Positions 23,888-58,074 of a stretch of 64,000 bases of DNA are shown in pieces; within the stretch, counting starts at the first letter, position 1, and the number at the start of each line of letters is the position of its first letter. The DNA is from Polytrichum commune (taxonomy: Eukaryota; Streptophyta; Polytrichopsida; Polytrichales; Polytrichaceae). The notes beneath the pieces were generated by a model. That model was not told where the DNA came from, did not search any database, and saw only the letters and a program-made list of their open reading frames with translations. Made by a program: the position numbers and the translations under genes. Where the stretch lies: positions 30,382,001 through 30,446,000 of the forward strand of contig OX485806.1 of NCBI GenBank assembly GCA_950295325.1, written 5' to 3'.

Positions 23888-23960
23888 GGGGGAGTAGCTC
23901 AAATGGTAGAGCGCCCGTTTCGCATACGGGAGGTAACGGGATCGATGCCCGTCTTCTCCA
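23888..23960 (+). tRNA. tRNA-Ala (CGC), possibly degenerate
   Basis: A 73-base cloverleaf folds completely: acceptor GGGGGAG with CTTCTCC, D stem GCTC/GAGC, anticodon stem CCCGT/ACGGG with loop TTCGCAT (anticodon CGC), T stem ACGGG/CCCGT, discriminator A. The G3-U70 wobble pair, the main alanine identity element, is present. The A box (TAGCTCAAATGG) is good. Odd: the T loop is ATCGATG instead of TTCGAAT/C, which also weakens the B box. No run of four T follows directly; the first T run is about 43 bases downstream. It may be transcribed poorly or be a pseudogene. Confidence 0.85.
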
Positions 23961-25171: not shown

Positions 25172-25710
25172 CTACACATCTACACGACGGGCGTCCCCAT
25201 CACAATCCTGCACTATTTCCACCACATTGTCCTCTTCATCTGGATAATCATCTGAGTAGTAGTCGATTTTGATCACATCAGTTTGATCGCTCTCCAGCAC
25301 GACAAAGGCCACTGCACGCATCATGATGCACAGGGTCACAACCATGCATCTCATACAGTAAAGTTCTCCTTCAGAAAGGTTTTGAGAGATTGTGGGCTTA
25401 CTGTCGTAACGATCCCGCAACTTGTCCTTGAGTTCCTTGTTCTTGATTGGGTTGCCGTAGACGGCAGGAGCATAGACAAAGATGGTTGTCTGCATGCATA
25501 TAGTAATTTTTGAAGCCGATGAATTAATGGCATCATCTCGACAGTACAGAGGAGCTCTGAGCACAATTTGCATGATTGTTGCTGCACATTTTTATCCAGG
25601 TTTTGTTTTTTGTTTTCTATTTTTATTTATTTATTTTCTTCTCATTTTTCAGAGGGAGTGCAGAACGCGATCTTCTTAAGAGAGAAGAAGCTATTCACAT
25701 CCACAATTTT

Positions 25711-25917
25711 GGATGAAGGATGGAAAATAAGGATTAAGGATGAAAAATAAGGATTAAGGATGAACAATAAAGATTAAGGATGAACAATAAAGATTAAGGA
25801 TGGAAAATAAGGATTAAGGATGAACAACAAAGATTAAGGATGGAAAATAAGGATTAAGGATGAACAATAAAGATTAAGGATGAACAATAAGGATTAAGGA
25901 TGGAAAATAAGGATGAA
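25711..25917. repeat. 20-bp minisatellite in an intron of L copy A
   Basis: About ten tandem units alternate between GGATGAACAATAAAGATTAA-like and GGATGGAAAATAAGGATTAA-like forms. No equivalent array is seen in the L copy at 42-44 kb. Confidence 0.93.
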
Positions 25918-27182
25918 GCAATTTTAATCCAAATTTAGGTATTTCCATCCAAAAACAATGATACCTTTCAAAAATTGACAATAAAGCCAAAAGAGGGAAT
26001 ATATAGTCAAATATTCTCTACCAAAAAAATGTATATAACGTTTTGAGAGATACATCGTCCAAAAACAATTCATTGTTTGTAAGGAACCTGCACTTCTAGA
26101 GGAAAAACATGACGTAGTGGCACGAATCACAAAACCATGAGGTATGGAGAGGAGGCTTGAGAGCAAGTTCCATATGTATGGTTCTCTAATTCTATGGCTC
26201 GTCCTCGCATGGTTTGTGCCACTTACACTACTGGTATCGAGTGGATTTAATGTCATATTCGTTTGTCAACTTTGTGACATTCTTAATTTCCACTGAGAGA
26301 AAGTGTCATTTGTGACATTATTTTGCTTAGTAAGTTGATTCTAATGCAGTCAAAATGCATTAGAGTCATGACGAGCCATTCGTTGCGTTCTCCTACTGGT
26401 AAACCGGCTCTAGCTTCAGGTATTCATCATTCATGCAATGTTCAGTAAGCGTAGATGGAGATATGGATACAGAAAATAGCAGATTGTACTTAAGTAGTAT
26501 CTTGCGAATGGACCAGAAATGCTCACGCTGTCACCCTTGAGTTCATCACGAGTCATCATGTCGTGAATGCGTCCATCTGATTCGGAGTCACTCTGCAAGC
26601 ATATCATCAATGTTAGATAATCGCTATATATAGTCGACACACAGAACAAATGCTTTGCGTGCAGAATGATTTGGACATCATAACGGAATTACTGTAAAGC
26701 TAAATATCCAAAATGTGATCCAGTGTATGTTCCTCCGCATATTATAGACGGCTTGACCCATCTCAAGTACCGAAGCCATCTCTTGATGCAGTTTCAATGT
26801 CGTCCCTCCTTGAGACTTGTAGAAAATCAGCGCCGCGGTGTAAGTTTGGAGTGTCACGATACTGGCATGCGTTGATCCGAGGCAGGGTTGTGCAAGGATC
26901 TGTATCCCGATCTTCAAATACCTGCAGGAAGCCTATAGAATCATCGTCATGGCAAGTTGTGAAGCTCGATCCAGTCAAAGCAACGGACATTGGGGATACA
27001 CTGAGTTCTACAAAACAACGTTGACATTAACAATCACATTCATGAGCAGTGGTTGACGCAATACAAACTTAGTCTGCAGCCTCTAAGAACAATGATCAGC
27101 GTACTTAAATCGATTAATGATGTCGTAGTCGCCTCTGACCAGGTTCTCGGTGTTGGATGCAACAGAAAGAGTTGCAAGGTCC

Positions 27183-27190
27183 GTTATATA
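27183..27190 (-). promoter_or_regulatory. TATA box of L copy A, conserved in three copies
   Basis: TATATAAC on the minus strand, preceded by CCTCGCC. The same core stands at 49687-49680 (-) and 42011-42018 (+), followed in all three by a conserved stretch containing GCATCCAACACCGAGAACCT. Conservation in the diverged copy argues that it is a functional core promoter. Confidence 0.65.
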
Positions 27191-28051
27191 GGCGAGGGAT
27201 CATTGCAGGATTCAGGCTGGACCATGCCGTCACCCAGTCGGTAAGGGAAACGGCTCCGGTGATGTCCAGCTGCTGGACAAAAAAAGTTCTCTAGCCAATA
27301 AATTTGAGTATCACATCTGGAATTACTGAATTTCCATACATCCATACAGCAGGTCAGACATCAACAGCAACACTTAATATAGTCTATAGCTAGCTGTTGC
27401 AGGATAGAAATTACTAGTTGCAAGCATGGAGGGCTACGCTTTAAGTTTACGGACCTAGAATCCCTCATATTAGTATAGATTCTGCCTGCGCTTACACAGT
27501 TAACGTAATTCCTTTTGAACACTATACATGAAATTATATGCTCACCATTCTTTACACTAGTCAATGCGGGCACCATCAACAACAAACCCTCTAACTCAAC
27601 AATACCTGAATGGATACAAAGTTGCCCATGTAACGACCCACTGTCAAGAACCTATTGAAATCTATATATCACCAAAATGTCCGAAATATGTCACATAACT
27701 TAGTTCTAAAATAAAAGGAAATTAGATAACCGACAAACATCTACATATCCCCAGCTTATTGAGGCCACCTACTGAAAGAATGGCCATACCTTTACCCAGC
27801 ATCATGGCCATGATCCGGATTAGGCAAACGGGCTCACATTCAGGTCGATGTCCGAACATTGACATTTGTCTTTTCTTTTCTTTTCTTTTTCTTTTCACCA
27901 TTTTGCATGTTTCATTTTCCGAAGCTCAATCTGCAGCAGGTTTGGAACTCGTAAACAATTAGTACTGAGGCATTTACCTAGTATACTTCCTATCATCCAT
28001 TCAGTGTAGTTCCACATCGCAGGTTACGAGTATCCCTACAGAATGCCAACC

Positions 28052-28059
28052 TGACGTCA
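28052..28059. promoter_or_regulatory. TGACGTCA palindrome upstream of R
   Basis: A perfect bZIP-type (CRE/TGA) site. It is kept at 50551-50558 in the young copy and at 34613-34620 in the diverged inverted copy, where surrounding bases have changed. That suggests a regulatory role for R. Confidence 0.5.
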
Positions 28060-29421
28060 TACCCCTGACTGACTTTTGGAATTGCCCCTCCTGCTATTGC
28101 GGGAACTGACACAGTTGAATATGTTCGTGCGGAGGACAGGGGACTGCCACGTGGACACTAGATCATTTTTAGGTACACTAGCTAAGTGTCACGGTAGCCG
28201 GCTGAGCCAGCCACGTGATAGAATGTCTCACCAGCGTTCAACAGCAATTCACCTGGTCTCTGGCATCACTCAAAAGACTGCGAAATCGGTAATTGTAACT
28301 GTTTGGAGGCTTGACTGTACATGCTGCATGCATATTTGTTTATGGTTTTCGTCGGCGTCGAGAGCAACTTAGGAATCATCCAAATTGCCAAATTAAGTAC
28401 CCAAGGTTTCCTTTACCCTCACGTGGTGGCGCCCTCCGAAGATTACATACATATAGTATAATTGCTGTTTCTTCTAGCGACGACGAGTTTGACTCAGTAA
28501 TACATCCAGTAATTGAGTGCATAGCTGTCGACCTTGTCTGTGACAAGTAGTCCACTTTCAGTGATAATAAGGGATTCCCGAGTACGATATGATGTATCAT
28601 CAATTGAGGAGCTACAAATCTGAGGAATTAACATCTCTAACTGAGAGAATGCGACTGTTAGTTTCTTTCCTGCATATGTGGCGACGTCTACCGGCTATGA
28701 TGGTAAAAAACTGAACTTGATGAGTGGCGTCGATGTCGGTAACCGTCGGTAACAGTGTTAACGTACCACATTCAATCTCCGACAAGAGTGAGCGACGTTG
28801 TTGACTGCGGAGTTGATACACCTCGTACTCACAGCACAATTCATTCACATTCTCCTCGGATTTTAAACGCAAATCAATGGCAGTTTTATATGTTGAACAT
28901 GAACTTGTAATGTTGCCGGTGCAGTATACACACATGCATGTGCGATAATTAACCCAGAGAGGAAAAACTTAGGAGGAGACATGAGCAATTCCCTCTCCGC
29001 GGGTGGGGGCGACAAGGTCATCCTCCGACGTGGAAAAGAGTAGGCTTCACTACTAGTTGGATGGGACCTGTAATTTCATGAAGGCTTTACAAAGTGCTCA
29101 TATTTCAAACCTGCATTTACTGAAAGGGAAAAATCGCTGGCTTTGGAGGATTAACTGAATAGAGCGCAAGTTGGAATGCTCCATCATTCAATAAGGCCGC
29201 TTCAGGTCTAAAACCTGATCATCATATTCTCCGCCATGACAACCTGGATGGAAACATGGGTTGATTCGGCTGGAGCATCAGCAGTACCTAGCTCATGCGG
29301 ATGCATGGGTACTAGAATAGAAATAGGAAAACTAAATAGTTCATTCGACGTACCCAGTACTACAGAGTTAATGTTGCGGCGCGAGCGTCTTGATTGTGGG
29401 TCAGCTTGGGTGTATTTCTGA
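28052..29421 (+). pseudogene. Cassette gene R, copy A (unknown function, frames disrupted)
   Basis: The plus-strand region aligns, inverted, with 34620-33484. Conserved pieces in order: promoter word TGACGTCA (28052-28059), an exon reading FVGVESNLGIIQ near 28350, an exon with SSDDEFDSVIHPVIE near 28475, an exon with YVATSTGYDG near 28670, then QSPTRVSDVVD near 28780. A downstream frame, 29236-29421, starts MTTWMETWVDSAG. The third and fourth pieces are out of frame with each other compared with the copy at 33.5 kb (a stop falls before the SPTRVSD piece), so this copy looks broken. No known domain. It is divergent from L, with about 0.9 kb between their starts. Confidence 0.4.
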
Positions 29422-32400
29422 CGGCAGTCTTGATTTTGTTAGCAACTCTCCGGCATGTGTTGTTTTAATCTTGACTTGTTTGATTTCCTTGGCATCGGGT
29501 GCAGTTCTTCGCAGCAGGAGTGTGCATCATGAATATTTTATGTAACTAATTGAAGCATGATTGACTGAGGAGCGAGGAGAGCGAACGAACAAGTTGCGCC
29601 CCATGACCGGAGTAATTAAGCAACTGTTGGTCTCTGATCGGATCAATTTATCTATAGTGGAGGCCCGGTTTCATTCCCCGAAGTTCGTGCACCCTGAATT
29701 CCAACCTGTCAGGCCCCGAAGAGTGTTAAGTTAATCAATAATACACTTGAATCAGTTAAGATTATCCCGTTAGAGGCGTTCCTGGCGGGATGGGATCAGC
29801 AATGACTCCGGGAAGTAAATTCATCTCAACGGGAGCAAATATCACCATCCTGTGGAGAGCAGGCAATACAAGAAGAGGAATTGATTGATGCCCGGGGCGG
29901 CAATCTGCATTTTATAATGAGCAATTCATTTGTGTTTGTTATGCATATTTTCGTTTCACAAATCTTATCTTCTCAATGACTTTGGTCTTGTTGCAAGGAA
30001 CTCAAGAAGTTCTTATATGATATAGTTGACCTCCGTATTTCCTGTGGGCAACGAATTAAGAATAATAAAATAATAAGTTGCGAATTTATCAAGCATGGGT
30101 CTTAGGATATAATAAGAGTTTTCCAACCCTTATTAAATAAAACTGTTCTCATAATGTCATATTACATCTTGTTATATCTTATTTTGACATTTGTTATTCT
30201 AATCAAATCATTACTTCATGTTTAATTATGAACTTATCATAAATTGTCAAAGCATAACTTTGTTGATGAGCCATGATTAGCATGTGTTTATGCTTTGGGG
30301 ATTGATGGTACCTACTTCCTTTGTCAAGATAATAACACTGATTTTGACACAATCAATCTTGATCAATTCCAAAACTTAAGTTAAAGTTCTTAGACCATCT
30401 AGTGCAACACCCTCTATTGCTTTACAATGTGCATATTATTTGTAATTGTGCATTGAGTGCCTACTTCTAGAGATCCAAGGCCAACCAAGGAGGCTAGGGC
30501 TTGACACCCACCTCTTTAAGTTAATAGGCTCCCATCACTGTTATTGAGGTAAAGGGGATTTAGGCAAATTCTAACCTCTATATATTTTTGTTTAGTGAAT
30601 CCCTGTACACTAATCCAAGGCTAATTCTGGGTTAAATTGTCTTAAGAAATAAATTCATTCTACAATTTAGTTAATTGCGTTTTCATCTTGGGACACTAAA
30701 CTGGAATGTTGGACCTTGGTGGGGGCCCAACTCAAAGAGGTGGGTGTCCAACCCTAGCCCTAGTTTGGAAATCATGCACGTGTTATTAGTGAGAAATCAA
30801 AACCTCACTCACATATTAACAATATGCGACCAACTAGTACATTTATCTCAAAATTCAAATATAATAATGTACCCAACTTCCTACCAATTTGTGTGGGTCC
30901 CATATTGAGGATATGTCCAAGGTTAACACCACATTGATGCATTGATTGCTGTAGATACATCTTGAATCTAGATATTATGCTTCATCGTAGATTTGCTAAT
31001 GCAACAAAAATTTCGTTATGTAAATCTTAGCGATAGAAGTTGGAGAACATGGGGGAGAACCGCATAACATATACATTATAATTTATTATACTTTAGACTA
31101 GAAAAAAACCCATTTCAAAATCCATCCCATTTTCCCCCTTGCCCTTCTACTGCTATCATCCGCCATCATCCACGTCCTCCTTCCAACGCGACCACTCCAT
31201 CTACACCTATCAACCTGCATAGCCATTCATTCAAAAGGGGGCCATGTGCCACCAGGGGGAAGGGGGGGGGGGGGGTCTTCCTCTCTACCCCACTCTCCCT
31301 ATCCTGAATTTAACATGTAGAGTAGGAGGAGCAAAGTGGGGCACTGGCCAGATGTAGGGCATGCTCTTGAGGTTTTTTTAACTTTTTTTAATTTGAGGGA
31401 ATTTTATAATAAAATCTACTAATATATGAGTTGTCATAATATTATTCAGATTCATGACAATGTTATGTGGCACTGATAGTATTTAGAGGAATATTCCTCA
31501 TATCCAGTCTGAATGTGAAGAATATTTTGCAAAATATTGTCAGTCCCACATAACATTGTTATGGATCTAAATAATGTTATGGTGGTGTATTAGAGCACCC
31601 AAATGATTGTATGAGGAGTGGAGAAATGATTGCAAAAGGAGGTACTAGGAGGTGAGTTGGGTTTGAGTGATGTGAGATTGTGTCGTGCAATTTGAAAGTT
31701 GTGATTGATTTGGAGGCTTGTGATTGGCTTGAGGGTTGTGAGTAAAAGCAAAACAAAAATTTCTATGCCTTCCATTTCAACGTGCATTTTTGTTTTGTTT
31801 AATATGGTTTTTTTGACTTCAAAAAATATAAATTTTCTTACAAAAATATTAGATATTGTTGGCTGCAAGATTTAGCATTTTTCTTTTTTAAATGATTTTG
31901 ATGATATTTTTGGGGTTTTCCTTGAAGTTGACTACTAGTAGCAATCAACCAAATAATTGACTAGTTGATCACTTGCTTTCAGTGACTCAACTGTAGCTGC
32001 ATTCAACTTAGAGCAATTGGCTAGCTGGGTCATTGTTGAACCAAAATACCACAAATTGCCCCAAAAGAGGATTCTTTTGATCTTTTAGCCAACAAGATCT
32101 AATGGTCCAAAATTTTATTTTGGGAATTTTTTGATTTTATGATCCTTTTGTAGTCAACGGTTTTGTCAACTAGTACCCCAAGGGTTGGACTCTTCATACC
32201 ACGTATGTACAAACTAATGAGAGTGTAAGAATATGGATTGATATTTTAGGTATTAGTTTACATAGTATACATAAGGGAGGGATTTAATTTTTCTCTAGTG
32301 TGTACATAAAAAAGAACCTATTAGAATATTTGAAGTAAAGGGAGATGTACAAATGGGTTTAATGCAATGATCATTAAGTTGTATGGTAATATGGATGAAG

Positions 32401-33483
32401 ATATGCTCAATGACTTTCTCGTTGGAAAGTGAAAGTGAAAGTGAAAGTAAAAGTGAAAGTGGACAATAATAAAAGACAATTTTAATCTTGATTTACATTT
32501 TGTATGTGTAGTGAAGGCATTTATTACATTAATTGGAATATCTTAGAATAAATACACGAGTCAATTTTCCAACATGCCGTTAGTACATATACATTCTCTA
32601 TAAACATCTCGTATATAGGGGGTTTAATTTCATAGTGACCCATGCGTGCCATTTAGATTTCCAATGAAGAATCCACCTCCGGGTTGCTTGTTAGGTAACA
32701 ATCAAACACGCAATTGACTAGGCGTTGGCTGCGACAATTAACCCATGCGTAAATTGTTCAATTTACCCCCCATTGACATGGCGCAACATGACAAACGCCG
32801 ACGTGTAATCTCTGCTCATTGCTGATTTATAATGATATTGTAGGTTTTAAGGCAACCTTAAAATGGAATTTCTTTTGCTAGATAATTTGAGCACTATAAA
32901 CTTAATTTTATAATTGATATGATGATCTTGATGAAAGAGGTACAGAGAAATTAATTCCGAGTCTTCTTACATTGCCTGCTATTCAGAGGTGTGGTCATTC
33001 CTCTCAATACAATTAATTTACTTCAATTCATTGCTGCTCCCATCCCACCAGCAAAACCCCGGAAAAACAACCGATCACTACACTAAATATTTTATGTAAT
33101 GTCTTATTTTATTTTTATTTTATGTCACTGTGGTAATTTTCTAATGAGACTTCTTATGATTAGGTTTACAAATATTGTCATCCCAATCTACTTTTTTTTC
33201 ATCCTTTTTTTTAATTTTAATTTTTTTTTGTATAAATTGTATCCTGAAATTTTTGTAATGAAGTACTATCACTGATGATTGAACTGGATGAAAATTCACT
33301 TAGTAAGTGACATTATTTGCAACACTGCATATCTATAATTTACAATTAAAAAAAGAAGGAATGACAAATAACATTAGGCTTACATTCAGTGTTGGTGACA
33401 CTAGTTTATCTTTAAGTCCACCAAGTTTCTCCTTTCTGGGTTTCTCGCACATGTGTGTTCACTGCACCGGTGCATTAACCTAG
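29422..33483. other. Noncoding right part of duplicated block and flank
   Basis: No gene recognised. It contains a G tract (31261-31275), a GAAAGT hexamer array, and a stretch from about 31590 to 32210 with CAAGATCT-type words also seen near 18.5 kb. After 32353 the sequence has no counterpart in the second copy. Confidence 0.5.
32424..32461. repeat. GAAAGT hexanucleotide microsatellite
   Basis: About six tandem units with one variant (GTAAAA). Confidence 0.9.
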
Positions 33484-34620
33484 TTATGCGAAATTCAATC
33501 CGCCATTAATTTGCATTTGAAATCCGAAGACACTGTGAATGCTTGGTGTATCAACTACGTGGTCAACGACGTCGCTAACTCTTGTCGGAGATTGAATCTG
33601 GTGAGTAGTTACACTGTTACCGATAGTTAAGTGACACCAATGCTGCTCATAAAGTTCGAAAATTATTCCAGAATCAATTTTAGCCGGCACCTCCAAATGA
33701 ATCACCATGACATATGCAGAATAGAATCAAGCAGTCGAATCATTCTAGTAAGAGATGCTCATTCTTCAGATTTGTAGAGCCTCAATTTGTAGACACATCA
33801 TCATGGTCCTCCTGGGGAATCACTTGTCCCTGAAAGTGGTGTACTTGCCACCGACAGGGTCAACAGTTATGGAGTCTGGACTTCATTTATGAATACACTG
33901 AGAAATGAGTCAAACTCGCTGTCGTTGTAAGAAAACTACTATTCTATGATCATATTGAAGCTACTCTAAATAGTCCTATAAGTGGGTGGGAAATTAGCAT
34001 GGAAATAATAAGCATGGCCACACTAATTTTCTAGTCAAGGTGGAAGTATTGTGGGTCCAACATCTTGGGCCTTCTCTTAAGTCTTTGCCAAGATTTTCGA
34101 CCAACACATTGAATATTACTTGTAAACCAAAAGTACCGCAACATAAAAATATTCACCCACATGAATTTTCTAGGAAAATTATTATTGTGGCCCACACTAA
34201 TTCTCACGATAAGAATTAGCATAAGCTGTAGACAATTATTGTGGCCCCCCAGTAATAGGTCTATTTAGTGTAGCTAGTCTTCTGAAGGCACCACCACGCG
34301 CCGTGGTGAAAGGAAAGCTGGGGCTGATCAATTTGGGAGTTTTGGACGATGCCCATAAACTTGCTCTCGACGCCGACAAAAGACTTAAATAGGTAACTTA
34401 TGTATGCACAGTCAAGCCACCAAAACAGTTTATGAGGATGGATATTGATCCGTACAAAGAGTCTTCCAACGAGTGATGCCACGGAGACAATGCAAGGTGA
34501 ATTACTAATGCACTGTTGTGGCGACATTCCATGTGGCAACTTATATAATTGTATAGGTTCCAGCATTAGCAGAAGGGTGCGCAAACTAAGATTTCTCAGT
34601 CAGCCTGCAGTGTGACGTCA
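33484..34620 (-). CDS. Cassette gene R, diverged inverted copy
   Basis: Minus-strand counterpart of R. Pieces in order: promoter word TGACGTCA (34613-34620), frame 34584-34261 with FKSFVGVESKFMGIVQ, an exon near 33925 reading NDSEFDSF, then a long open last exon (33708-33484) with VIHLEVPAKIDSG, QIQSPTRVSDVVD and an ending in NGGLNFA. Unlike in the other copies, the last exon is uninterrupted here, so this may be the most intact R gene. Exact splice sites were not fixed. No domain recognised. Together with L at 42.0 kb it forms a second divergent cassette. Confidence 0.4.
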
Positions 34621-34649
34621 GGCTGACATTGTGCAGGGGCACTTGGAGC

Positions 34650-41925: not shown

Positions 41926-42010
41926 GCTGGACTCCGGCGCCGTTGATCTCTAAATAACTAACTGGGTGACTGCAGGGTCCACCTGATGAGCCCTGCAATG
42001 ATTCCTCGCC

Positions 42011-42018
42011 TATATAAC
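42011..42018 (+). promoter_or_regulatory. TATA box of the diverged L copy
   Basis: TATATAAC in the context CTCGCCTATATAACGA, at the same place relative to the conserved CATCCAACACCGAGAACC stretch as in the two other copies. Confidence 0.65.
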
Positions 42019-43682
42019 GAATCCTGCAATTCGTTCTGTTGCATCCAACACCGAGAACCTGATCAGAGGCGGACTACGATATCATTCTCCAATTGAAGTT
42101 CACTGAGACTGTACACATAATTTCTGTTGCAACAAGAAGTTAAGTGACGTTGAGAAAGATCTACACTCTGTGCCGGGCTGCAGGTGTATATTAAACTTGC
42201 ATCACAGTTCATGAATGTGGTTCTTGACGTTGATTGACATGATTCCATTAATCGATCCCAGTGTGTATTGCTTTGACTCGATCTAGCGTCACAATTGGTC
42301 ATGACGATAAAATCTGCTGGGATTCCTGCAGGTATCTGGTAAGGAACTGCCCTGCTTGAGATCAAGGCCAACCAACCGCAAAGCTCCAAAACTTGTGCTG
42401 CGGCGCCGATTTTTTACGAGTCTTAGGAAGGACGACGTTGAAACTGCAGCAACCTGAGATGGATAATTGGGTATACTTGAAAATTTCTTTTAATTTTTGG
42501 AGATAGGTCAAGCTAGCTGTCCATATTGTACGGCTGAACATACCCTGGATCACATTTCGGACAATGAATAAGCGTGACGTCAATACTGTTATGATCTCCA
42601 AATTATTCTGCACGCAAATGGTTGGTTCTATATATGATCATTAGATATTAGACTATATATAGAGTCATACTTATGTTAATTTGTTCGCAGAACGACCCAC
42701 AAGAGGGAATGGAACACGACATACCTGATCATGAATACCAAAGTACCAACGTGAGCATCTCGGATCCATTGACAAGTTATAACTTGTATTCTGCACTTTT
42801 CATCTGTATCGAAACTTCCACCTACACCTAATGAACATTGCATGAATAATGAATACCTGAGATAAAGGTGATTGACTAGTAGTACTGCAACGAAAACGTA
42901 GTATTGATGACCTTCCATGGGCCTTTCCCGGTACAAAATTGGGAGCTAAAATGTTCTAGCAGTCTCGTATTTCTAGAGGTCCGAGAATGCAGTGGCACAA
43001 ACCACTTAATCACAGACGTCTACCAAGTCACTGACATCATGGACCAGCTATGGAGAGGATTCTTGCAAGGGAAATCATTTTCTTCTCTCATACCATTGTC
43101 GCAATCGTATGACAACTCATGGTCGGGTGGTTTGTGCGGCCACTACGTCATTCTCCTCTAGAATTTCAGGGTTATAAAAAATGTGCATCAACAATTTTTA
43201 TGTATGTGTTCACCACCCCTTTCAATTGTACTGTAGAGATGATGCCACTAATTACAGGCCCCCTGTTAATTATATGTATGCATCCAGGCAACCATCTCTA
43301 TCTGTGCTCCTGCCATCTACGGAGACGCAAGCAAGAGGGAGCAACTCAGGGATAAATTGAACGACGAAAATTATAGTAAGCCCACAATGTCTCCCAAATT
43401 TGTATTTCTCATAAACTTCACTGCTCACGACTGTTTTACCCATTGTTAGTGAGCAATAACGGATCGAAAGCTTGGAAGGGAATTTTCTGAATGAGATGCA
43501 TGATTGTGACCCTGTGCATTATAATGCATGCAGGTATCCATGTCGTGGAGGATGATGAAGATGAATATAACGTGATCCTTGTCCATTACTACCCAGATGA
43601 GGACGGGGAGATTGATGAGGACGATGTGCTGGAAATAGTGAAGAAGCACTTTGATCGCAATGCCTCTCTTAACAACAATTAG
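42011..43682 (+). CDS. Cassette gene L, diverged copy, best preserved
   Basis: TATATAAC lies at 42011-42018. Four consecutive exons join in phase: 42691-42785 (NDPQEGMEHDIPDH), 42993-43146 (GTNHLITDVYQVTDIMDQLW, ending GGLCGHY), 43288-43375 (ATISICAPAIYGD) and 43534-43682 (HVVEDDEDEYNVILVHYYPD, stop TAG). Leftover bases match at each junction; the donor at 43147 (GTCATT) is weak. 5' exons between 42040 and 42400 are uncertain. The product is acidic at its C-terminus, has no signal peptide in the part seen, and belongs to no family I recognise. About 43683-44000 matches the 3' flank of copy A in reverse. Substitutions relative to copy A while the phase is preserved suggest a real gene. Confidence 0.55.
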
Positions 43683-44479
43683 ACCAGAAGCATGCCTGTC
43701 TCAGAATGATGAATGATCCACAGCCAATTAGCTCCAGCGCTCCTTATATTCTGCAGATTGATTTATTCGCTACATCCTTATGGCCTACCTTCATAAATTG
43801 GAGCAAGCTACACTGAAAACTCCTGCATCAGTCCCTGGCCAGACACCAACCTTCGCATCTAGAAACCATTACAACAACATAAAATTGTCACATGCATCCC
43901 AGCTCACATGAAGCTCAATAAACTTGCGCTGACAGGAATCTAGTGACGTTGAACTTTGAAGCTTGTAGTCTTGAATGTGAAAGATTCTTTTTCAACTCAG
44001 TCAATTCTGGTCTTTTTTATATTCTTGGATTTATCATTGTCCACTGAGTCACATGCATACTCTGTTCCAAAACTCCATGACTTTCAGTTCATTTTACTTT
44101 CAACTATTTAACTTCAAATAGTGACCATTAAGTATTATTTAGGAACAGGGAAAGCCCTGGAAAGTGCCATAAGCAGGGGAGACCAACATGCTTAAACTTT
44201 CGAAAGATGAATTTTTTTAATTTAAAAATAAATAAATAAAAAATAAAAATCTTGTTACCTTCGAGCTGGAAGACGTTGGTGATCACACACGTGGCAACTT
44301 CATGAATCACAATTCAGATTCCAGCCAGGGAGGTAAGGTCAATTGTGGTCACAGCTGTGACTTGGTGGCCATTAACAGGCCAGGAGTTGACACTTCCTAT
44401 TGAAATGTGCATCATTCTCAATATATCATGAAAAGATGTGCAATATAAAGCTCTAATATGTTGGGTTCCATATAATAAG

Positions 44480-44600
44480 TTGCACTAATGCGTTTTGATT
44501 GCGTTAATGTCACAAATATGGCATTTTCTTTCAATGGAAACTTAAAATGTCACAAAGATGACAAACAAATATGACATTAAATCCACTAGATTGTTGTAGT
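44480..44600. repeat. Dispersed repeat also present at 26235-26345 (inverted)
   Basis: Contains ATGTCACAAA, GACAAACAAATATGACATTAA and ATCCACT. Its reverse complement matches 26235-26345, inside L copy A. Here it lies 3' of L, so the placement differs and it is probably a small mobile repeat. Confidence 0.6.
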
Positions 44601-44642
44601 GTTTTGTTCAACTTCTGGTCCGATACATGTGATCTTTGAAAG

Positions 44643-44872
44643 TTTTGGATTAGTTTGTTGTTAGTTAGTTAGTTAGTTTTAGTTGAGGATTAGTATGTTG
44701 AGAGAAGATAATAGTAGATGTTTCTAGAAGCTACTAGAACATTGACAGTCACTACCAAGTGTGAGTTGCAGACAATATATTGGAGTTAGTAAGATTGTAT
44801 TATGCTTTTGTGAAATATATGTCATGTAAATTGTTGTAGAAGTGAGATGCTTGTGAGTTTCTTTAGTCTACA
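44643..44872 (+). repeat. 5' LTR of the copia element
   Basis: 230 bp, starting TTTTGGATTAGTTTG (canonical TG probably mutated) and ending CTACA. It contains four GTTA units near the start. Confidence 0.85.
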
Positions 44873-44875
44873 AAA

Positions 44876-44886
44876 GGTTATGGGCC
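44876..44886 (+). other. Primer binding site: internal initiator tRNA-Met
   Basis: GGTTATGGGCC, four bases after the LTR end, is exactly complementary to the anticodon-loop region of plant initiator tRNA-Met (GGCCCATAACC), not to a tRNA 3' end. Known: Drosophila copia and yeast Ty5 prime this way with a cleaved half tRNA. Confidence 0.8.
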
Positions 44887-44931
44887 GTTCCTGCGTGGAT
44901 TTCCGTTGCAGATGAGTTGCAGATGAGTTGT

Positions 44932-45180
44932 TTATGAGTTGCAGATTAGTTGAACACGTTCCTCCGAGACAAGTCCTCTCGCCGAACAAGTCGCCGAACA
45001 AGAACTGTTGCTACCTGCAAGCGCTAAGGTCTTTCTTGCAGGAAAAGAGAGATAAAGCCCACTTAGTACTGGAACATCTGGTCGTGAAGGGTAACTGAAG
45101 TATACATTCCATAACTCAATGTTTTCTTGCACATCAGCTATTACAATATTCCCTTCAGAATCGCCATTGCTTGGAGTGCA
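44932..45180 (-). pseudogene. Captured ABCB (P-glycoprotein type) transporter fragment
   Basis: The minus strand reads IELWNVYFSYPSRPDVPVLSG then LALAGSNSS. This is the start of an ABCB nucleotide-binding domain up to the Walker A position, which is degenerate (no GKS/T). It is preceded by DSEGNIVIADVQEN, as in the linker before that domain. It lies between the primer site and gag, antisense to the element. Inferred: a host gene piece taken up by the retrotransposon. Only about 80 codons, nonfunctional. Confidence 0.85.
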
Positions 45181-45546
45181 GCTATCTCATTAACTCCTTC
45201 CAAGATGATCACAACTTTCTCTCTACCTACTCTCATTTCTTTTGTCTGAGACTCTGTTGCTGTGCTTCAGCAGCAATGTTGCTCATCATCATTAAACTAA
45301 TTCCAATCTTCGCCTCATTTAGTGTCAGCTGCAATATCTACAGCACACCTATTCCAACTATCTGATCGATCCCTTCCAAGTCGATCACCGCACCCGGCCT
45401 GTCATCATGGGGACATCATTAGGGTATTACTAGGGTCAATCGATCTTTCGAGGTTTTTCACAACAGATTGTAGCAATCTCGAGCTTCTTGGCACGGATGG
45501 GAAGTTTGTGTAGTTGTAGTTCTTGATTTCTTGTTTTTTTTTCAAA

Positions 45547-45900
45547 ATGTCACTTGATAAGGAACTTAGTGGTATTGCTAGGTTCAATGGAGATGAGTTT
45601 CACATCTGGAAGTGGCAGATGAAGTCATTATTACAATACAAGAAGATTAACACCATTGTTGATGGTACTGAGACACTCGAAAACGCTGCAGACAAGGAAG
45701 ACTGGCAAGCTCGGGAATACTCTGCGTTCACTCTTCTCTGCAATTCTGTTGAGCGTCATGTTCTGACTCCACTTCTTCAGTGTACCATGTCTCATCAGAT
45801 TTGGACTACCCTTTTGTCCATCTACGAGCACAAATCTAGTGCCGATTTTTATGAACTTCAGAGGCGTTTCTTTAACTGCAAGATCCAACCCTGTTCTTCT
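45547..45900 (+). pseudogene. copia gag, truncated
   Basis: It starts at ATG 45547 (MSLDKELSGIARFNGDEFHIW). The phrase FHIWKWQMKSLL and later IWTTLLSIYE are typical of UBN2-type copia gag. It breaks off after LQRRFFNCK; the CCHC zinc knuckle is missing. Confidence 0.85.
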
Positions 45901-48900
45901 CAAAAACGTACTCTACGTTCCTAGTCTCCAATGCAATCTCTTTTCTACTACTCTCATGGCTACAAAACATTCCATCCACTTCATTGGGACACAGACGCAC
46001 TGTCACTTTGTTAAGAACAATGAAATCCTCTTCACATGTTGTCTTATTCAAGACATGTACATTCTTGATTTCACTGTGCTTCTATCACATGTGCATGGAT
46101 TCTACACTGCTGCATATGGAAACATTCCATTCAAAGAGGAGTATCAAACCATTTAACTGTGGCATCATCGCCTTGGTCATCTACATTTTGACATGATCAA
46201 GAAAATGGTTCACAGTGGTGCAATTATAGGTCTTCATCTCACAACTCAAGAGCCAACCGAATTGTGTGCTGCTTGTCAATTTGGGAAGATGAAGCGTCAA
46301 TCATTTCCGGTGAATCATTTTCGCACTCATGCTCCGTTTCCGGGTGATCTAGTGCATGGGGATATTTGTGGACCTATGAGTCAACCTTCCAAAGGCAGCT
46401 CAGTATATTTTGTGCTTTATCAGGATGATTCCACATGATACAGGTTCGTATTCTGTATTATATGAAAATCAAAGGCTCTTACATGCTTCCAACAGGTTTT
46501 CAAGACAATTTTACGGGACACAGGTCGCACGATTTCTACACTCCGTACTGATCGTGGTGGCGAATTTAGTAGTACTGTTTTTTTTGCTTATCTCTCTGAG
46601 AATAATATTCGCAGGGAACTCACTACCAGCTATACACCTGAACAGAATGCAGTTGTTGAATGAGCAAATCGGACAATCATGGAAGGCGTGCGGAGTTCAT
46701 TGTATCACTAGCAATTGCCAATGTCTTTTTGGGTTGAAGTAGTTGTGTATATTGTGTACACACTTAATCACACTTGTTCTAGGGTTCATGGTGATCTTAC
46801 ACCATTCAAACTCTACACTGGTATTAAACCCTCTTTATCACATCTTCGTCCATTCGGGTGTCCAGTGTTTGTTTACATCCCTGCTCAACTACGCAAGAAA
46901 TTAGATGCAAAAAGTCGTAGAGGCATTTTTGTTGGATACTCTGATGAGAGTAAGGGCTACTAGAGATTTAGTGTTTGACGAACGAGCTATTCAACAGATT
47001 CCCAAGTCTACAGGGGTTCCTCCTCTCAGTCCCTCTTCCACATCTCAGGTTCTCATTCCAGACATACCTCCGCCTTCTAATCCTCCAGATTTTCCTCATC
47101 CTCCTACATCCTCTGATTCACAATCTTCTAGTTCTACTGAACATTTAGAGAGACATCTTGTTGTGGATATTCCACTTCATCCTATGCCAGTTCCAACAGA
47201 TGGATCTCCTACAAATAACTCCATTCCGGGTTCTATTTCTACAATTCATTCTTCCGAAGCCTCTTCACCGTCTGATCCATCCGTTCCAGAAATTTCTACA
47301 AGTCAACATGCCTCACTTGGTGTCAGGCCAATCAATCCTCCCAATCGTTATAGCGACTGGCATTATAGCTTTACTGCTATGGCAGGCACTTTGCCCCCAG
47401 TACCGAAAACATATGACGAAGCCATCAATTCTGTTCATGCTAAGGAATGGAAGGCGGCTATGGATGCAAAGTTTGATGCTCTTATTGCAAATGATACATG
47501 GGAACTGCGACCCCTACCTCCAGGGCGCCAACCAATCAAATGTAAATGGGTTTATGCATATAAGACTAAGCCTGATGGCAGCTTAGACCGTTTCAAGGCT
47601 AGACTTGTAGCCAAAGGCTATAGTCAAACTCCGGGTACAGATTTTCAAGAAACGCTTTCACCTACAGTGAAATATGAAAGCATCTGTTTGGCATTAGCTG
47701 TTGCAGCAACTACTGATATGGAGCTACGTCAATTTGATATTACCACAACATTTCTTAATGCTTTACTTCACACTGAGCTTTACATGCATCAAGTACCTGG
47801 ATATGTTGATCTTTTACGAAAGCATTTGGTCTGTTACTTGAAGAAGGCTCTCTATGGGCTTAGACAAGCCAGTCGTGAATGGAACCATCGTATTGATGCT
47901 TTACTCAAAGCATTCAAGCTCACACAGTCTCCAGCTGATAACTGCGTATATTTTTCCGATCACGAAGGGCTTCGTTTACTCATTATGTTATTTGTAGACG
48001 ATGGATTGATGGTTTCCAATAGTCATGCTCAGATGGATTCGGTATTGGCATTCATGAAGGATGTTTTCATTACGAAGGTCACTATGGATCCAGAACTCTA
48101 TGTTGGTGTTCATATTGAAAGAGATCGCCCTCATCGAATTATTTACATCGACCAGCAGTTATATATCGATTCTCTGTTGCAGAAATTCAAATTTCAAGAC
48201 AGCCATGTTGTTTCTACTCTTGCTGAACCGGGTGCACATCTTCGTCCAATCACCAATGTTACTGATGAGACACTGGAACCTACTTTTCCTTATGCTCAGA
48301 TTATTGGTAGTTTACAATTCGCAGCACTCACCACTCGCCCAGATATTGCATATGCTGTCAATAATGCAGCACAATTTAAAAATCATCCTACTACTGCCAA
48401 TTGCAATGTTGTGAGACGCATTCTTAAATATCTTTGTGGTACTTCTGAGTATCGTCTTACATTAGGCGGAAATCATTCTTCCTTTCTCCTCACAGCTTAT
48501 GCCGACGCTGACTATGTTGCTGCTGTTGAGGATTGTAAGTCACGTTCAGGTTATGTCATTTACTTTGATGGCAACCCTATTTCATGGGCTTCAAAGAAGC
48601 AGCCATGTGTGGCAACTAGTACTACTCACAGCGAGTACATCGCATGTTATGCAGTTGCTACAGAGGTCATTTGGTTACGAAGACTTCTTGCAAGTATTGG
48701 AATTCCTCAAACCAAACCTACTACCATTTTCACTGATAGCCAGAGTGCCATGTGTCTCGCTGTAAATCCCGAATTTCATTCTCGAACAAAGCATGTCGAT
48801 GTCAAGTTCCACTTTCTTCATGAATAGGTGGTTCTTCGTTCAATTGAGATTCATTATCTTCCTACTCAACAACAAATTGCTGATATCTTGACAAAGGCCT

Positions 48901-48959
48901 TACCGCCGGATCAGTTTCAAGGTCTCCGAGACTTATTGACACTCACTACAACGAATTGA
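45901..48959 (+). pseudogene. copia pol (protease end, integrase, RT, RNase H), broken
   Basis: Begins in the protease tail (LKNVLYVPSLQCNLFS); the catalytic DTG is deleted. GAG-pre-integrase (LWHHRLGHLHFD), integrase zinc finger (CAACQFGKMK) and core (GDLVHGDICGP, TDRGGEFSS) follow across frameshifts and stops between 46156 and 46963. From 46905 to 48827 one long frame holds reverse transcriptase (CKWVYAYKTKPDG, RLVAKGYSQ, ALYGLRQASREW, FVDDGLMV in the YVDD position) and RNase H (YADADYVA, TDSQSAMCLAVNP). An in-frame TAG at 48825-48827 precedes the intact tail (QQIADILTKALP) to 48959. Not autonomous. Confidence 0.93.
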
Positions 48960-49013
48960 AGTGGGAGAAGTAGTCTATCAATACATTGTTAGTGACTTGT
49001 CAATGAGTGGGAG

Positions 49014-49247
49014 TTTTGGATTAGTTTGTTGTTAGTTAGTTAGTTAGTTTTAGTTGAGGATTAGTGTGTTGAGAGCAGATAATAGTAGATGTTTCTAGAA
49101 GCTACTAGGACATTGACAGTCACTACCAAGTGTGAGTTGCAGACAATATATTGGAGTTAGTAAGATTGTATTCTGCTTTTGTGAAATATATGTTTGTCAT
49201 GTAAATTGTTGTAGAAGTGCTATGCTTGTGAATTTCTTTAGTTTACA
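49014..49247 (+). repeat. 3' LTR of the copia element
   Basis: 234 bp, preceded by the purine-rich GAGTGGGAG (polypurine tract). It matches the 5' LTR apart from a 4-base insertion (TTTG) and about eight substitutions. Confidence 0.9.
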
Positions 49248-49250
49248 AAA

Positions 49251-49298
49251 TGAACTAAAACTAACTAACTAACTAACTAACAACAATCTACTCCAAAA
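49251..49298 (-). repeat. Inverted fragment of the LTR start
   Basis: The reverse complement of this stretch reads like the first 48 bases of the LTR (TTTTGGA, TTGTTGTTAGTTAG, TTTTAGTT). It lies 3 bases after the 3' LTR and ends exactly where the segmental duplication begins. Confidence 0.85.
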
Positions 49299-49687
49299 GT
49301 CCCTCCATGAGACTTGTAGAAAATCAGCGCCGCGGTGTAAGTTTGGAGTGTCACGATATTGGCATGCGTTGATCCGAGGCAGGGTTGTGCAAGGATCTGT
49401 ATCCCGATCTTCAAATACCTGCAGGAAGCCTATAGAATCATCGTCATGGCAAGTTGTGAAGCTCGATCCAGTCAAAGCAACGGACATTGGGGATACACTG
49501 AGTTCTACAAAACAACGTTGACATTAACAATCACATTCATGAGCAGTGGTTGACGCAATACAAACTTAGTCTGCAGCCTCTAAGAACAATGATCAGCGTA
49601 CTTGAATCGATTAATGATGTCGTAGTCGCCTCTGACCAGTTTCTCGGTGTTGGATGCAACAGAAAGAGTTGCAAGGTCCGTTATATA
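49299..49687 (-). pseudogene. 5' part of cassette gene L, young copy (truncated)
   Basis: Near-identical to 26802-27190 of copy A, including the MSVALTGSSFTT exon and the TATA box at 49687-49680. The remaining 3' exons are absent; the sequence stops at the copia junction. A promoter with a stub of a gene. Confidence 0.7.
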
Positions 49688-50550
49688 GGCGAGGGATCAT
49701 TGCAGGATTCAGCTGGACCATGCCGTCACCCAGTCGGTAAGGGAAACGGCTCCGGTGATGTCCAGCTGCTGGACACAAAAAGTTCTCTAGCCAATAAATT
49801 CGAGTATCACATCTGGAATTACTGAATTTCCATACATCCATACAGCAGGTCAGACATCAACAGCAACACTTAATATAGTGTATAGCTAGCTGTTGCAGGA
49901 TAGAAATTACTTGTTGCAAGCATGGAGGGCTACGCTTTAAGTTTACGGACCTAGAATCCCTCATATTAGTATAGATTCTGCCTGCGCTTACACAGTTAAC
50001 GTAATTCCTTTTGAACACTATACATGAAATTATATGCTCACCATTCTTTACACTAGTCAATGCGGGCACCATCAACAACAAACCCTCTAACTCAACAATA
50101 CCTGAATGCATGGTTACAAAGTTGCACATGTAACGACCCACTGTCAAGAACCTATTGAAATCTATATATCACCAAAATGTCCGAAAAATGTCACATAACT
50201 TAGTTCTAAAATAAAAGGAAATTAGATAACCGACAAACAACTACATATCCCCAGCTTATTGAGGCCACCTACTGAAAGAAAGGCCATACCTTTACCCAGC
50301 ATCATGGCCATGATCCGGATTAGGCAACAGGCTCACATTCAGGTCGATGTCCGAACATTGACATTTGTCTTTTCTTTTCTTTTCTTTTTCTTTTCACCAT
50401 TTTGCATGTTTTATTTTCCGAAGCTCAATCTGCAGCAGGTTTGGAACTCGTAGACAATTAGTACTGAGGCATTTACCTAGTATACTTCCTATCATCCATT
50501 CAGTGTAGTTCCACATCGCAGGTTACGAGTATCCCTACAGAATGCCAACC

Positions 50551-51916
50551 TGACGTCATACCCCTGACTGACTTTTGGAATTGCCCCTCCTGCTATTGCG
50601 GGAACTGACACAGTTGAATATGTTCGTGCGGAGGACAGGGGACTGCCACGTGGACACTAGATCATTTTTAGGTACACTAGCTAAGTGTCACGGTAGCCGG
50701 CTGAGCCAGCCACGTGATAGAATGTCTCACCAGCGTTCAACAGCAATTCACCTGGTCTCTGGCATCACTCAAAAGACTGCGAAATCGGTAATTGTAACTG
50801 TTTGGAGGCTTGACTGTACATGCTGCATGCATATTTGTTTATGGTTTTCGTCGGCGTCGAGAGCAACTTAGGAATCATCCAAATTGCCAAATTAAGTACC
50901 CAAGGTTTCCTTTACCCTCACGTGGTGGCGCCCTCCGAAGATTACATACATATAGTATAATTGCTGTTTCTTCTAGCGACGACGAGTTTGACTCAGTAAT
51001 ACATCCAGTAATTGAGTGCATAGCTGTCGACCTTGTCTGTGACAAGTAGTCCACTTTCAGTGATAATAAGGGATTCCCGAGTACGATATGATGTATCATC
51101 AATTGAGGAGCTACAAATCTGAGGAATTAACACCTCTAACTGAGAGAATGCGACTGTTAGTTTCTTTCCTGCATATGTGGCGACGTCTACCGGCTATGAT
51201 GGTAAAAAACTGAACTTGATGAGTGGCGTCGATGTCGGTAACCGTCGGTAACAGTGTTAACGCACCACATTCAATCTCCGACAAGAGTGAGCGACGTTGT
51301 TGACTGCGGAGTTGATACACCTCGTACTCACAGCACAATTCATTCACATTCTCCTCGGATTTTAAACGCAAATCAATGGCAGTTTTATATGTTGAACATG
51401 AACTTGTAATGTTGCCGGTGCAGTATACACACATGTGCGATAATTAACCCAGAGAGGAGAAACTTAGGAGGAGACATGAGCAATTCCCTCTCCGCGGGTG
51501 GGGGCGACAAGGTCAGCCTCGGACGTGGAAAAGAGTAGGCTTCACTACTAGTTGGATGGGACCTGTAATTTCATGAAGGCTTTACAAAGTGCTCATATTT
51601 CAAACCTGCACTTACTGAAAGGGAAAAATCGCTGGCTTTGGAGGATTAACTGAATAGAGCGCAAGTTGGAATGCTCCATCATTCAATAATGCCGCTTCAG
51701 GTCTAAAACCTGATCATCATATTCTCCGCCATGACAACCTGGATGGAAACATGGGTTGATTCGGCTGGAGTATCAGCAGTACCTAGCTCATGCGGATGCA
51801 TGGGTACTGGAATAGAAATAGGAAAACTAAATAGTTCATTCGACGTACCCAGTACTACAGAGTTAATGTTGCGGCGCGAGCGTCTTGATTGTGGGTCAGC
51901 TTGGGTGTATTTCTGA
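50551..51916 (+). pseudogene. Cassette gene R, young copy
   Basis: Almost base-identical to 28052-29421, including TGACGTCA at 50551-50558, the FVGVESNLGIIQ and SSDDEFDSVIHP exon pieces and the frame 51731-51916. The same stop-causing disruptions seen in copy A are present, so the gene was already broken before duplication, or the two copies have been homogenised since. Confidence 0.4.
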
Positions 51917-53230
51917 CGGCAGTCTTGATTAAGTTAGCAACTCTCCGGCATGTGTTGTTTTAATCTTGACTTGTTTGATTTCCTTGGCATCGGGTGCAGT
52001 TCTTCGCAGCAGCAGTGTGCATCATTAATATTTTATGTAACTAATTGAAGCATGATTGACTGAGGAGCGAGGAGAGCGAACGAACAAGTTGCGCCCCATG
52101 ACCGGAGAAATTAAGCATCATTTTATCTATAGTGGAGGATTTCATTCCCCGAAGTTCGTGCACCCTGAATTCCAACCTGTCAGGCCCCGAAGAGTGTTAA
52201 GTTAATCAATAATACACTTGAATCAGTTAAGATTTTCCCATTAGAGGTGTTCCTGGCGGGATGGAATCAGCAATGACTCCGGGAAGTAAATTCATCTCAA
52301 CGGGAGCAAATATCAACGGAGAGCAGGCAATACAAGAAGAGGAATTGATTGATGCCCGGGGCGGCAACCTGCATTTTCTAATGAGCAATTTATTTGTGTT
52401 TGTTAAGTTTATTTTCCTTTTACAAATCTTATTTTCTCAATGACTTTGGTCTTGTTGCAAGGAACTCAAGAAGATGAATCCAATGCTATCTTATATGATA
52501 TAGTTGACCTCCGTATTTCCTGTGGGCAACGAATTAAGAATAATAAAATAATAAGTTGCGAATTGATTAAGCATGGGTCTTAGGATATAATAAGAGATTT
52601 CCAAACCTTTATAAATAAAGACTTTCCTCATAATGTCTTATTACATCTTGTTATATCTTATTTTGACATTTGATATTCTAATCAAACCATTACTTCATGG
52701 TTAATTATGAACTTATCATAAATTGTCAGAGCATAACTCTGTTGACGACCCATTATTAGCATGTGTTTAGGTTTCGGGGATTGATGGTACCTACTTCCTT
52801 CGTCAAGATAATAACATTGATTTTGACACAGTCAATCTTGATCAATTCCAAAACTTAAGATAAAGTGCTTAGACCATCTAGTGCAACACCCTCTATTGCT
52901 TTAAAATGTGCATATTATTTGTAATTGTGCATTGAGTGCCTACTTCTAGAGATCCAAGGCCAACCATGGAGGCTAGGGCTTGACACCCACCTCTTTAAGC
53001 TAGGCTCCCATCATGTTATTGAAGTAAAGGGGGTTTTAGGCAAAATCTAACCTCTATATATTTTTGCTTAGTGAATCCCTATACACTAATCCAAGGCTAA
53101 TTCTCGGTCAAATTGTCTTAAGAAATAAATTAAATATTATTGCTACAATTTAATTTATTACGTTTTCATCTTGGGACACTAAACTGGAATGTTGGACCTT
53201 GGTGGGGGCCCAACTCAAAGAGGTGGGTGT

Positions 53231-53258
53231 CTAGCCCTAGCCCTAGCCCTAGCCCTAG
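53231..53258. repeat. CCCTAG hexamer array, expanded relative to the other copy
   Basis: Four and a half units of CCCTAG, against about two at the matching place near 30751. Confidence 0.9.
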
Positions 53259-54641
53259 TTTGGAAATCATGCATGTATTATTAGTGAGAAATCAAAACCT
53301 CACTCACATATTAACAGTATGCAACCAACTAGTACATTTGTCTCAAAATTCAAAATATAATAATGTAGCCAACTTCCTACCAAGTTGTGGGTCTCATATT
53401 ATTTGAGGATATGTCCAAGGTTAACACTACATTGATGCATTGATTGCTGTAGATACATCTTGAATCTAGATATTATGCTTCATCATAGATTTACTAATGC
53501 AACCAAAGTTTCATTATGTAAATCTTAACGATAAAAAGTGGAGAACATGAGAGAGAACCGAATAACATATTATACATTATAATTTATTATACTTTAGACT
53601 AGAAAAAAACCCATTATAAACTCATCCCATTTTTCCCGTTCATCATCCACCTCCTCCTTCCCATCCCCTTTCCCCCCATTACGGCCACCCCATCCCCCTT
53701 CCAACCTATCAACGTGCATAGCCATTCAAAGGGGGCCCGCCGGGGGGGGGGGGGAGTTCTTTCTCCCTATGCTGAATTCAACATGTAGAGTAGGAGGAGC
53801 AAAGTGGGGCACTGGCCAGATGTAGGGCATGCTCTTGAGGTTTCTTTAATTTTTTTAATTTAAGGGATTTTAATAATAAAATGTATAATTATATGAGTTG
53901 TCATAACATTATTCAGATTCATGACAATGTTTTGTGGAACTGACAATAATTTGTGGAATATTCCTCACATTCAATTTGAATGTCAAGAATATTCTGCAAA
54001 ATATTGTTAGTCCCACATAACACTGTATTGGATCTAAATAATGTTATGGTGGTGTATTAGAGCACCCAAATGATTGTGTGAGGAGTGCGGAATTATTGCA
54101 AAAAGAGGTAGGAGGTGAGGTGGGTTTGAGTGATGTGAGAGTGTGTCGTGCAATTTGAAAGTTGTGGGTTGATTTGGAGGCTTGTGACTGGCTTGAGGGT
54201 TGTGAGTAAAAGCAAAACACAAATTTCCATGCATTCCATTTCAATGTGTATTTTTTCTTTGTTTAATATGGTTGTTTTGACTTCAAAAAAGACTAAAATT
54301 TATTTTTTTTACAAAATATTAGATATTGTTGGCTGCAAGATCTAGCATTTTTCTTTTTTAAATGATTTTGATGATATTTTTTGGGTTTCCCTTGAAGTCG
54401 ACTAGTTGATCACTTGCTTTCAGTGACTTGACTGTAGCATTCAACTTAGAGCACTTGGCTAGTTGGTTCATTATTGAACCAAAAAACCACAATTTTGTTT
54501 TTTAAAAACGGATTCTTTTGTTGTCATCGGCTTTGTCAACTAGTATCCCAAGGGGTAGACTCTTCATACCACGTATGTACAAACTATTGTGAGTGTAGGA
54601 ATGTGGGTTGATATTTTAGGTATTAGTTTACATAGTATACA

Positions 54642-55147
54642 CCCGGGTACGCAACTCCCATATTTTACGCAGGGGGTATCGTACTTAAAACGGCTTAGAG
54701 GACGGCTTTTGTAAAAATTATATCAAATTATATCAAATTAAAATGATCAAAAAGTTGGGTGAAGACCAAATTAAATAAAATGAGATGAAAAAAAAGTTAG
54801 GTTGCATATTTATTAAGCCTCCCATTAAAATTATAAGCCACGAATAGTTGCCTCCCATTAAAAATATAATTCTTTCACAATGTTAAAATTTTATTAAAAA
54901 GTCCAAAAAGTTGGGTAGTTTGACCTATGGTACATGTATTAAAAAAATCATATAATTAGGTTTTTAATGCAATTATATGCTTCAAAATATATTCATTTCC
55001 TATATATAATTACATTTTTGGATTCCTTGTTAGAAGGGCTACAAGGGTTTCCTACATTAAAACAAATTGTATCACTCAATATTGGACTAAAACGCATTAT
55101 AAGTGATTATAATCAGGACCATATAATACGGGAGTTGCGTACCCGGG
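54642..55147. mobile_element. 506-bp MITE with 8-bp target duplication
   Basis: Termini CCCGGGTACGCAACTCCC are perfect inverted repeats (54642-54659, 55130-55147). The 8-bp AGTATACA flanks it (54634-54641, 55148-55155) and occurs once at the matching empty site in copy A (near 32264). The interior is AT-rich and noncoding. Known: 8-bp duplications are typical of hAT elements, though the termini are not the usual CAGGG type. Confidence 0.95.
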
Positions 55148-55244
55148 AGTATACATAAGGGAGGGATATTATTTTTCTCTAGTGTGTACATAAAAAAGAG
55201 CTTATTAGAATATTTGAAGTAAAGGGAGATGTACAAAAGGGGGT

Positions 55245-57094: not shown

Positions 57095-57184
57095 TTTTTG
57101 GCGCCGCTGCCGGGGAAGGTTGTGGTCGTCTTTTAAGGTTAAATTGGAAAGGAACGTAATAACAAATGTTCAGTGTCAACCATA

Positions 57185-57655: not shown

Positions 57656-57830
57656 GCCCTGACGAACTGATGGAGTGGTGTTGGCAAGTCCCGGACTCTG
57701 CCAAACACAAGATATATTCAGGGGGATATTTATTCTCAGTGTTATATAGGTTTTTTCGTTTCAGCTATCACGGGAACGGAATCTATATTACTCCTGATGT
57801 AGCCTTACCCAGGGTTGTCTATCGCGACGT

Positions 57831-57890
57831 CATGACGGTGTCGTGCCGTCATGTCAGGTCGTGTCGTGACGGACCCCTCCGTCACGACAC
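57831..57890. repeat. Two adjacent hairpins
   Basis: Hairpin 1: CATGACGG (57831-57838) and CCGTCATG (57846-57853), 7-base loop. Hairpin 2: GTGTCGTGACGGA (57861-57873) and TCCGTCACGACAC (57878-57890), loop CCCC, perfect 13-bp stem. The two share the word GTCGTG. Confidence 0.93.
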
Positions 57891-58074
57891 AATAGGGTCC
57901 ACGTAGGGTCAACATAGGGGGAATGGACTAGGGTGGGTAAAATACTTACCTTCTTGCCAAGGTGGCGTCCTATGTGGCAGAAAACGCCGACGTGGATGTG
58001 CATATTTCCCTTGCCAAGTAAACCATTTTGCCATTGTGTTTAGGGTTCTGTTAAAATCAAAGTAGAAAAATATG

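Follow-up and report, generated by a model that had tools for sequence, protein, structure and literature searches.

As judged from sequence comparison, L is a small orphan protein-coding gene family in a 408-Mb green-plant genome (64 contigs), of which the window, the whole stretch of DNA analysed here, covers 64,000 nucleotides (C4:30382001-30446000). It is reasonably likely that three processes shape this family: exchange between copies that keeps the flanks of the gene alike, selection for difference that keeps the exons apart, and turnover of the copies.

At least eight copies of L that contain exon 3 were found by self-comparison of the window and by genome searches in which the best candidates were scored, with five at C4:30.4-30.7 Mb, one on C1 and two at C4:1.6 Mb. 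A genome search with the protein of copy A itself returned family members only. The copies are located as follows.

Window: L copies A and B
C4:30.59-30.70 Mb: L copies D and E
C4:30.71 Mb: L copy F
C1:38.34 Mb: L copy C1
C4:1.60 and 1.62 Mb: L copies G and H

The earlier note had described L and R as two multi-exon genes that point away from each other and recur in several copies, one of them inverted, and the copies and the inverted order are real. Self-comparison of the window places copy A at about 24.9-29.5 kb, and shows that copy B is inverted and diverged, with its R part at 33.4-34.4 kb, its L part at 41.9-43.9 kb, and L and R pieces that are 65-78% identical to those of copy A. The reported recurrence of R with the L promoter at 49-52 kb corresponds to copy C, a duplication of 26802-32057 at 49299-54495 (92.8% alike).

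Outside the window, copies D and E each match B at about 91-96% when compared in pieces along some 10 kb, and these three copies belong to a single recent lineage of duplication. Identity for F and C1 is mostly 87-94%, and the order of their pieces is shuffled. Copy E (C4:30.69-30.70 Mb) is a chimera, which is B-like up to the position corresponding to about 43.25 kb, including an exon 1 identical to that of B, and 13-25% different beyond it; on the alignment, this switch just before exon 2 is the trace of an exchange. Copy C, exon 2 of F, and exon 2 and the leader donor of G are broken or truncated, and second, partial L copies, which have lost the exon-1 donor, lie near E, F and C1.

Comparison of exons and reading frames among the copies indicates that L is a coding gene in which three small exons give an acidic protein, so that the multi-exon structure claimed for both genes stands for L. 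The features of L in the window are as follows.

27182-27191, minus strand: TATA core CTATATAACG of L, copy A (sequence match)
26920-26933, minus strand: end of leader exon 0 of L with donor CAG/GTATTTGA, copy A
26527-26592, minus strand: L exon 1, copy A, 66 nt, phase 0
25402-25489, minus strand: L exon 2, copy A, 88 nt, donor GTAAGC
25172-25311, minus strand: L exon 3, copy A, 140 nt including stop TAG, acceptor GTGCAG
42010-42019, plus strand: TATA core of L, copy B
42691-42750, plus strand: L exon 1, copy B, 60 nt, 11 of 60 sites different from copy D
43288-43375, plus strand: L exon 2, copy B, 88 nt
43534-43682, plus strand: L exon 3, copy B, 149 nt including stop TAG, 11 of 143 sites different from copy D
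49299-49812, minus strand: truncated L, copy C, leader region and TATA core without exons 1-3

The TATA position of copy A carries TATATAAC, as does the matching place in B, D, E, G and H and the partial second copies at F and C1; in copy C, the core CTATATAACG lies at 49679-49688 on the minus strand. Six GT are shared by A, B, D, E and H, and of these only CAG/GTATTTGA has good donor form; this donor is lost in G.

In all eight copies, exon 3 is an open frame between a conserved acceptor and a stop. In the six copies first compared, it measures 140-155 nt in the same phase throughout, and every indel among the six aligned copies is a multiple of three. Exon 2 is intact in six of the eight copies, the exceptions being F, with a 23-base deletion across the donor, and G, with a 2-base slip. 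Exon 1 (51-66 nt, phase 0) was found in A, B, D, E, G and H, and a search for it in the main F and C1 copies did not locate it. Exon-1 DNA that had been ascribed to F and C1 belongs to the second, truncated copies, and was dropped from the exon-1 argument. Exons 1-3 are all intact in five of the eight copies (A, B, D, E and H).

A shared start codon was not found among the L copies; a methionine is present in exon 1 of A, B, D and E, and copy H has none in exons 1-3. A conserved signal peptide was not found in L either. Intron 1 of copy A holds a tandem array of 20/60-base units at 25711-25918.

An excess of exon differences over intron differences was found in two close and mutually independent pairs, B-D and G-H. 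For B and D, 23 of 288 exon sites differ, compared to 22 of 1804 in the promoter, introns and 3' flank (Fisher p 1.6e-9). The exon differences are distributed as 11/60 in exon 1, 1/85 in exon 2 and 11/143 in exon 3, and the noncoding ones as 9/862 from promoter to exon 1, 7/533 in intron 1, 1/158 in intron 2 and 5/251 in the 3' flank. Across 41.8-44.1 kb, the windows of comparison that are at least 10% different overlap exons 1 and 3 only.

For G and H, 28 of 269 exon sites differ, compared to 60 of 1299 noncoding sites (p 6e-4). By part, the counts are 9/42, 8/87 and 11/140 in exons 1, 2 and 3, respectively, and 9/254 in intron 1, 5/166 in intron 2, 5/196 in the 3' flank and 41/683 from promoter to exon 1. 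A second alignment of this pair gave 29/288 in the exons, 14/416 in introns 1 and 2, 12/329 in the leader, 41/528 upstream and 21/416 on the 3' side. Just before exon 1, 25 of 159 sites differ, which is partly misalignment at a deletion.

Between the distant copies A and B, the largest differences are again those of exons 1 and 3 (0.48 and 0.40), with exon 2 at 0.31 and the other parts at 0.22-0.36. For the pairs B-F, B-C1 and F-C1, the exons differ by 9-17%, and the DNA before exon 2 together with the 3' flank by 7-18%, close to the exons, with intron 2 alone slow (0-1.3%); an exon excess over the 3' flank and the DNA before exon 2 is thus unclear in pairs with C1 or F.

The spacer between the R and L parts, at 36.4-41.4 kb, differs between B and D by 2-13% per 250 bases, compared to about 1% in the noncoding DNA of L, and this is the pattern expected of homogenised flanks. 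B-D divergence is also low at 33.4-36.4 kb (0.4-3% per 250 bases), so that low divergence is not special to L.

Codon models were fitted with our own code to sequences that are short and partly recombinant. For exons 2 and 3 of B, D, E, F and C1, omega (dN/dS) was 3.48 (p 0.0007), rising to 4.72 (p 0.0005) without the broken copy F. Among the same five copies, exon 3 alone gave an omega of 3.20 (p 0.008) and exon 2 alone an unbounded one (p 0.0003). The site model M2a was preferred over M1a (p 5e-7) and assigned roughly a fifth of the sites an omega near 10. Over all exons, 21 of the 23 differences between B and D change an amino acid.

As noncoding controls, three stretches of B, D, E and C1 were read in six frames each, and the smallest p among these 18 frames was 0.127. 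When the exons of the same four copies were read in the five wrong frames, two deviated, with omega 0.46 (p 0.014) and 2.26 (p 0.010); these may be mirror effects of the same changes. All eight copies together gave an omega of 1.40 (p 0.13). In a coding test that scores conservative change favourably, neither L (best p<0.090) nor R reached significance.

For the G-H pair, exons 2 and 3 gave an omega of 0.91, with the slipped codons of G included. Over all exons without the four slip-touched codons, 20.5 of 28 differences change an amino acid, and the rates are 7.5/54 (0.14) for silent and 20.5/213 (0.10) for replacement sites. Silent change is elevated here as well, so that this pair cannot be accounted for by amino-acid selection alone.

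These values are what would be seen if the exons changed fast at all sites, silent ones included, through exchange bounded by the exons or through local mutation, with no selection on amino acids. Silent divergence of about 0.14 between G and H, compared to 0.03-0.08 in introns 1 and 2, the leader, the upstream DNA and the 3' side, speaks for this explanation, as do the B-D differences in exon 1, which span that exon from its first to its last base. It does not account for an omega of 3.5-4.7 in B, D, E, F and C1 (p<0.001), which the coding frame shows and the noncoding frames do not, or for the predominance of amino-acid changes between B and D. We therefore regard it as somewhat unlikely, although it is the strongest of the alternatives.

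Under the preferred combination of exchange and selection, segmental duplication, inversion and exchange between copies would multiply and shuffle the L unit. Exchange, presumably gene conversion, would hold the promoter, introns and 3' flank alike, and selection for difference would hold the exons apart. Homogenised flanks together with exons kept apart would also raise the silent differences within exons, as seen for G and H.

If the copies of L were instead functionless, decaying relics whose frames had been retained by chance, losses such as those in copy C, exon 2 of F, exon 2 and the leader donor of G, and the partial copies near E, F and C1 would be expected. Their open frames argue the other way: exon 3 is open in all eight copies and exons 1-3 in five, at up to about 48% DNA difference. 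Indels in threes within exon 3 and an excess of differences limited to exons are likewise not expected of relics, which makes this explanation quite unlikely.

Unlike L, R gave no reading frame or exon pattern, and the earlier description of it as a multi-exon gene was not confirmed. Its core, common to A, C, B, D, E1 and E2, lies in the window as follows.

28480-28970, no strand assigned: R core, copy A, repeated DNA with no frame found (genome search and frame scan)
33423-33905, no strand assigned: R core, copy B
50979-51465, no strand assigned: R core, copy C

In all six copies, the R core contains 4 to 15 stops in each of the six frames, among which short exons could hide; the introns of L hold stops too. 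Many R indels are not multiples of three, and exon-like clusters were not found between the close copies B, D and E1. The best coding score for R was non-significant (p<0.104) and fell on the strand of L. The site TGACGTCA is present at 28052, 34613 and 50551, with a further occurrence at 42575 within the L gene of copy B. Because it is its own reverse complement, the site carries no information on the strand of R. It may be that R is a regulatory stretch or a relic.

These observations bear on the proposal that L and R form a divergent two-gene unit that travels and acts together. Such a unit would be consistent with the adjoining L and R DNA in A, B, D and E, and with the TATA core of L and the TGACGTCA site of R, both of which are, as reported, retained in the diverged copy B (42010-42019 and 34613, respectively). 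For R, neither a frame, nor exon clusters, nor a significant coding score was found, and R-core DNA lies within about 9 kb of only four of the eight L copies (A, B, D and E), three of which are one lineage; a whole-genome search in which the best candidates were scored matched no R core near F, C1, G or H. The shared region of about 0.9 kb between the two holds for A and C only, with about 7-8 kb separating R from L in B, D and E. A relative of R at G and H had been suspected from short matches, but alignment with H shows no R core, and on that alignment the short match looks like a shared repeat. A jointly acting pair is accordingly very unlikely.

An origin of the repeats in a transposable element is extremely improbable, since, despite MITE-like repeats and a copia element in and between the copies, L exon 3 was matched at eight places only (as a lower bound), the L and R frames scanned gave no match to a transposase or polymerase family (nine read-through frames, 24.0-32.0 kb; minus strand 24.0-29.7 kb and plus strand 26.0-32.0 kb), and a MITE-like repeat lies at different places in A and B.

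The MITE-like repeats, at 26225-26363 and 31435-31582, have many copies genome-wide, and the latter matches both strands, as a palindrome would. The copia element lies between B and C and is not part of L.

44641-49250, plus strand: Ty1/copia retrotransposon, LTR pair 95% alike, RVT_2

It holds a 640-aa open frame containing the reverse transcriptase.

No family had been recognised for L in the earlier note, and our searches agree. Among the read-through frames over L and R, none reached E<0.005 in Pfam, the best match having an E of 0.0056, below its cut-off; five L members searched separately gave a best E of 0.0075, in one member only. The best match of L to PDB sequences had an E of 0.41. 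Copy H protein showed a weak C2 match (E 2.5), and the predicted structure of the copy A open frame, folded with two window fragments, had a mean pLDDT of 48. The acidic OPCA motif is a feature of the PB1 domain, and an acidic stretch near the end of L resembled it; this resemblance found no support, as PB1 was absent from the Pfam matches up to E 10 in the five of eight copies scanned, a scan in which the HMMER filters drop most weak matches. The portions of the literature consulted on the organism, fast exons or orphan genes in mosses contained nothing on the L family.

In animals, gene families in which exons change faster than introns are a classic sign of biological contests. In snake venom phospholipase A2, coding regions reportedly outpace introns, with dN above dS, according to work by Nakashima from 1993 and 1995. 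L paralogues resemble that family in that exons are faster than introns between close copies, and differ from it in that L resides in a plant genome, has no relative among the Pfam and PDB matches, and has no conserved signal peptide that we could find. The rodent Esp, Mup and Abp pheromone families are ones in which duplication and gene conversion have been examined jointly with positive selection (PMC3477143). These are secreted animal proteins, and their relation to L was tested via Pfam and PDB only.

The role of L may be one of recognition or conflict. The predicted acidic protein would bind a changing partner, which could be a pathogen molecule or a partner in mating or spore competition. 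In its full form, this proposal makes L a locus for recognition or conflict in a seed-free plant, be it over self and non-self, mating or spore competition. Exchange would then homogenise all but the exons, and diversification of the exons would reach their borders with almost single-base precision, making L the plant equivalent of the hypervariable recognition genes of animals; this reading is unlikely. The L family would offer a natural setting for testing how a gene is shared out between gene conversion and selection, and, as a small family of eight copies with shared promoters in a plant that bears flagellar genes, a handle on the contest of that plant.

The flagellar radial-spoke family PF04712 is matched in the genome (best E 2.6e-38), and this match probably reflects a seed-free plant with swimming sperm. 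The genome also contains 58 matches to the light-harvesting family PF00504, which mark it as that of a photosynthetic eukaryote, surely a green plant; 14 of them, all scoring equally against the profile, form a tandem series at C5:1.75-1.85 Mb. A guess from similar kinase genes is that the plant could be a moss. Elsewhere in the window, a tRNA gene is located at 23888-23960 (Rfam 57.7 bits), and a kinase-like gene at 57143-61266 (Pkinase E 1.8e-6, below the curated cut-off), beside which G+C-rich tandem arrays of 15-22-base units occupy 58.1-59.0 kb.
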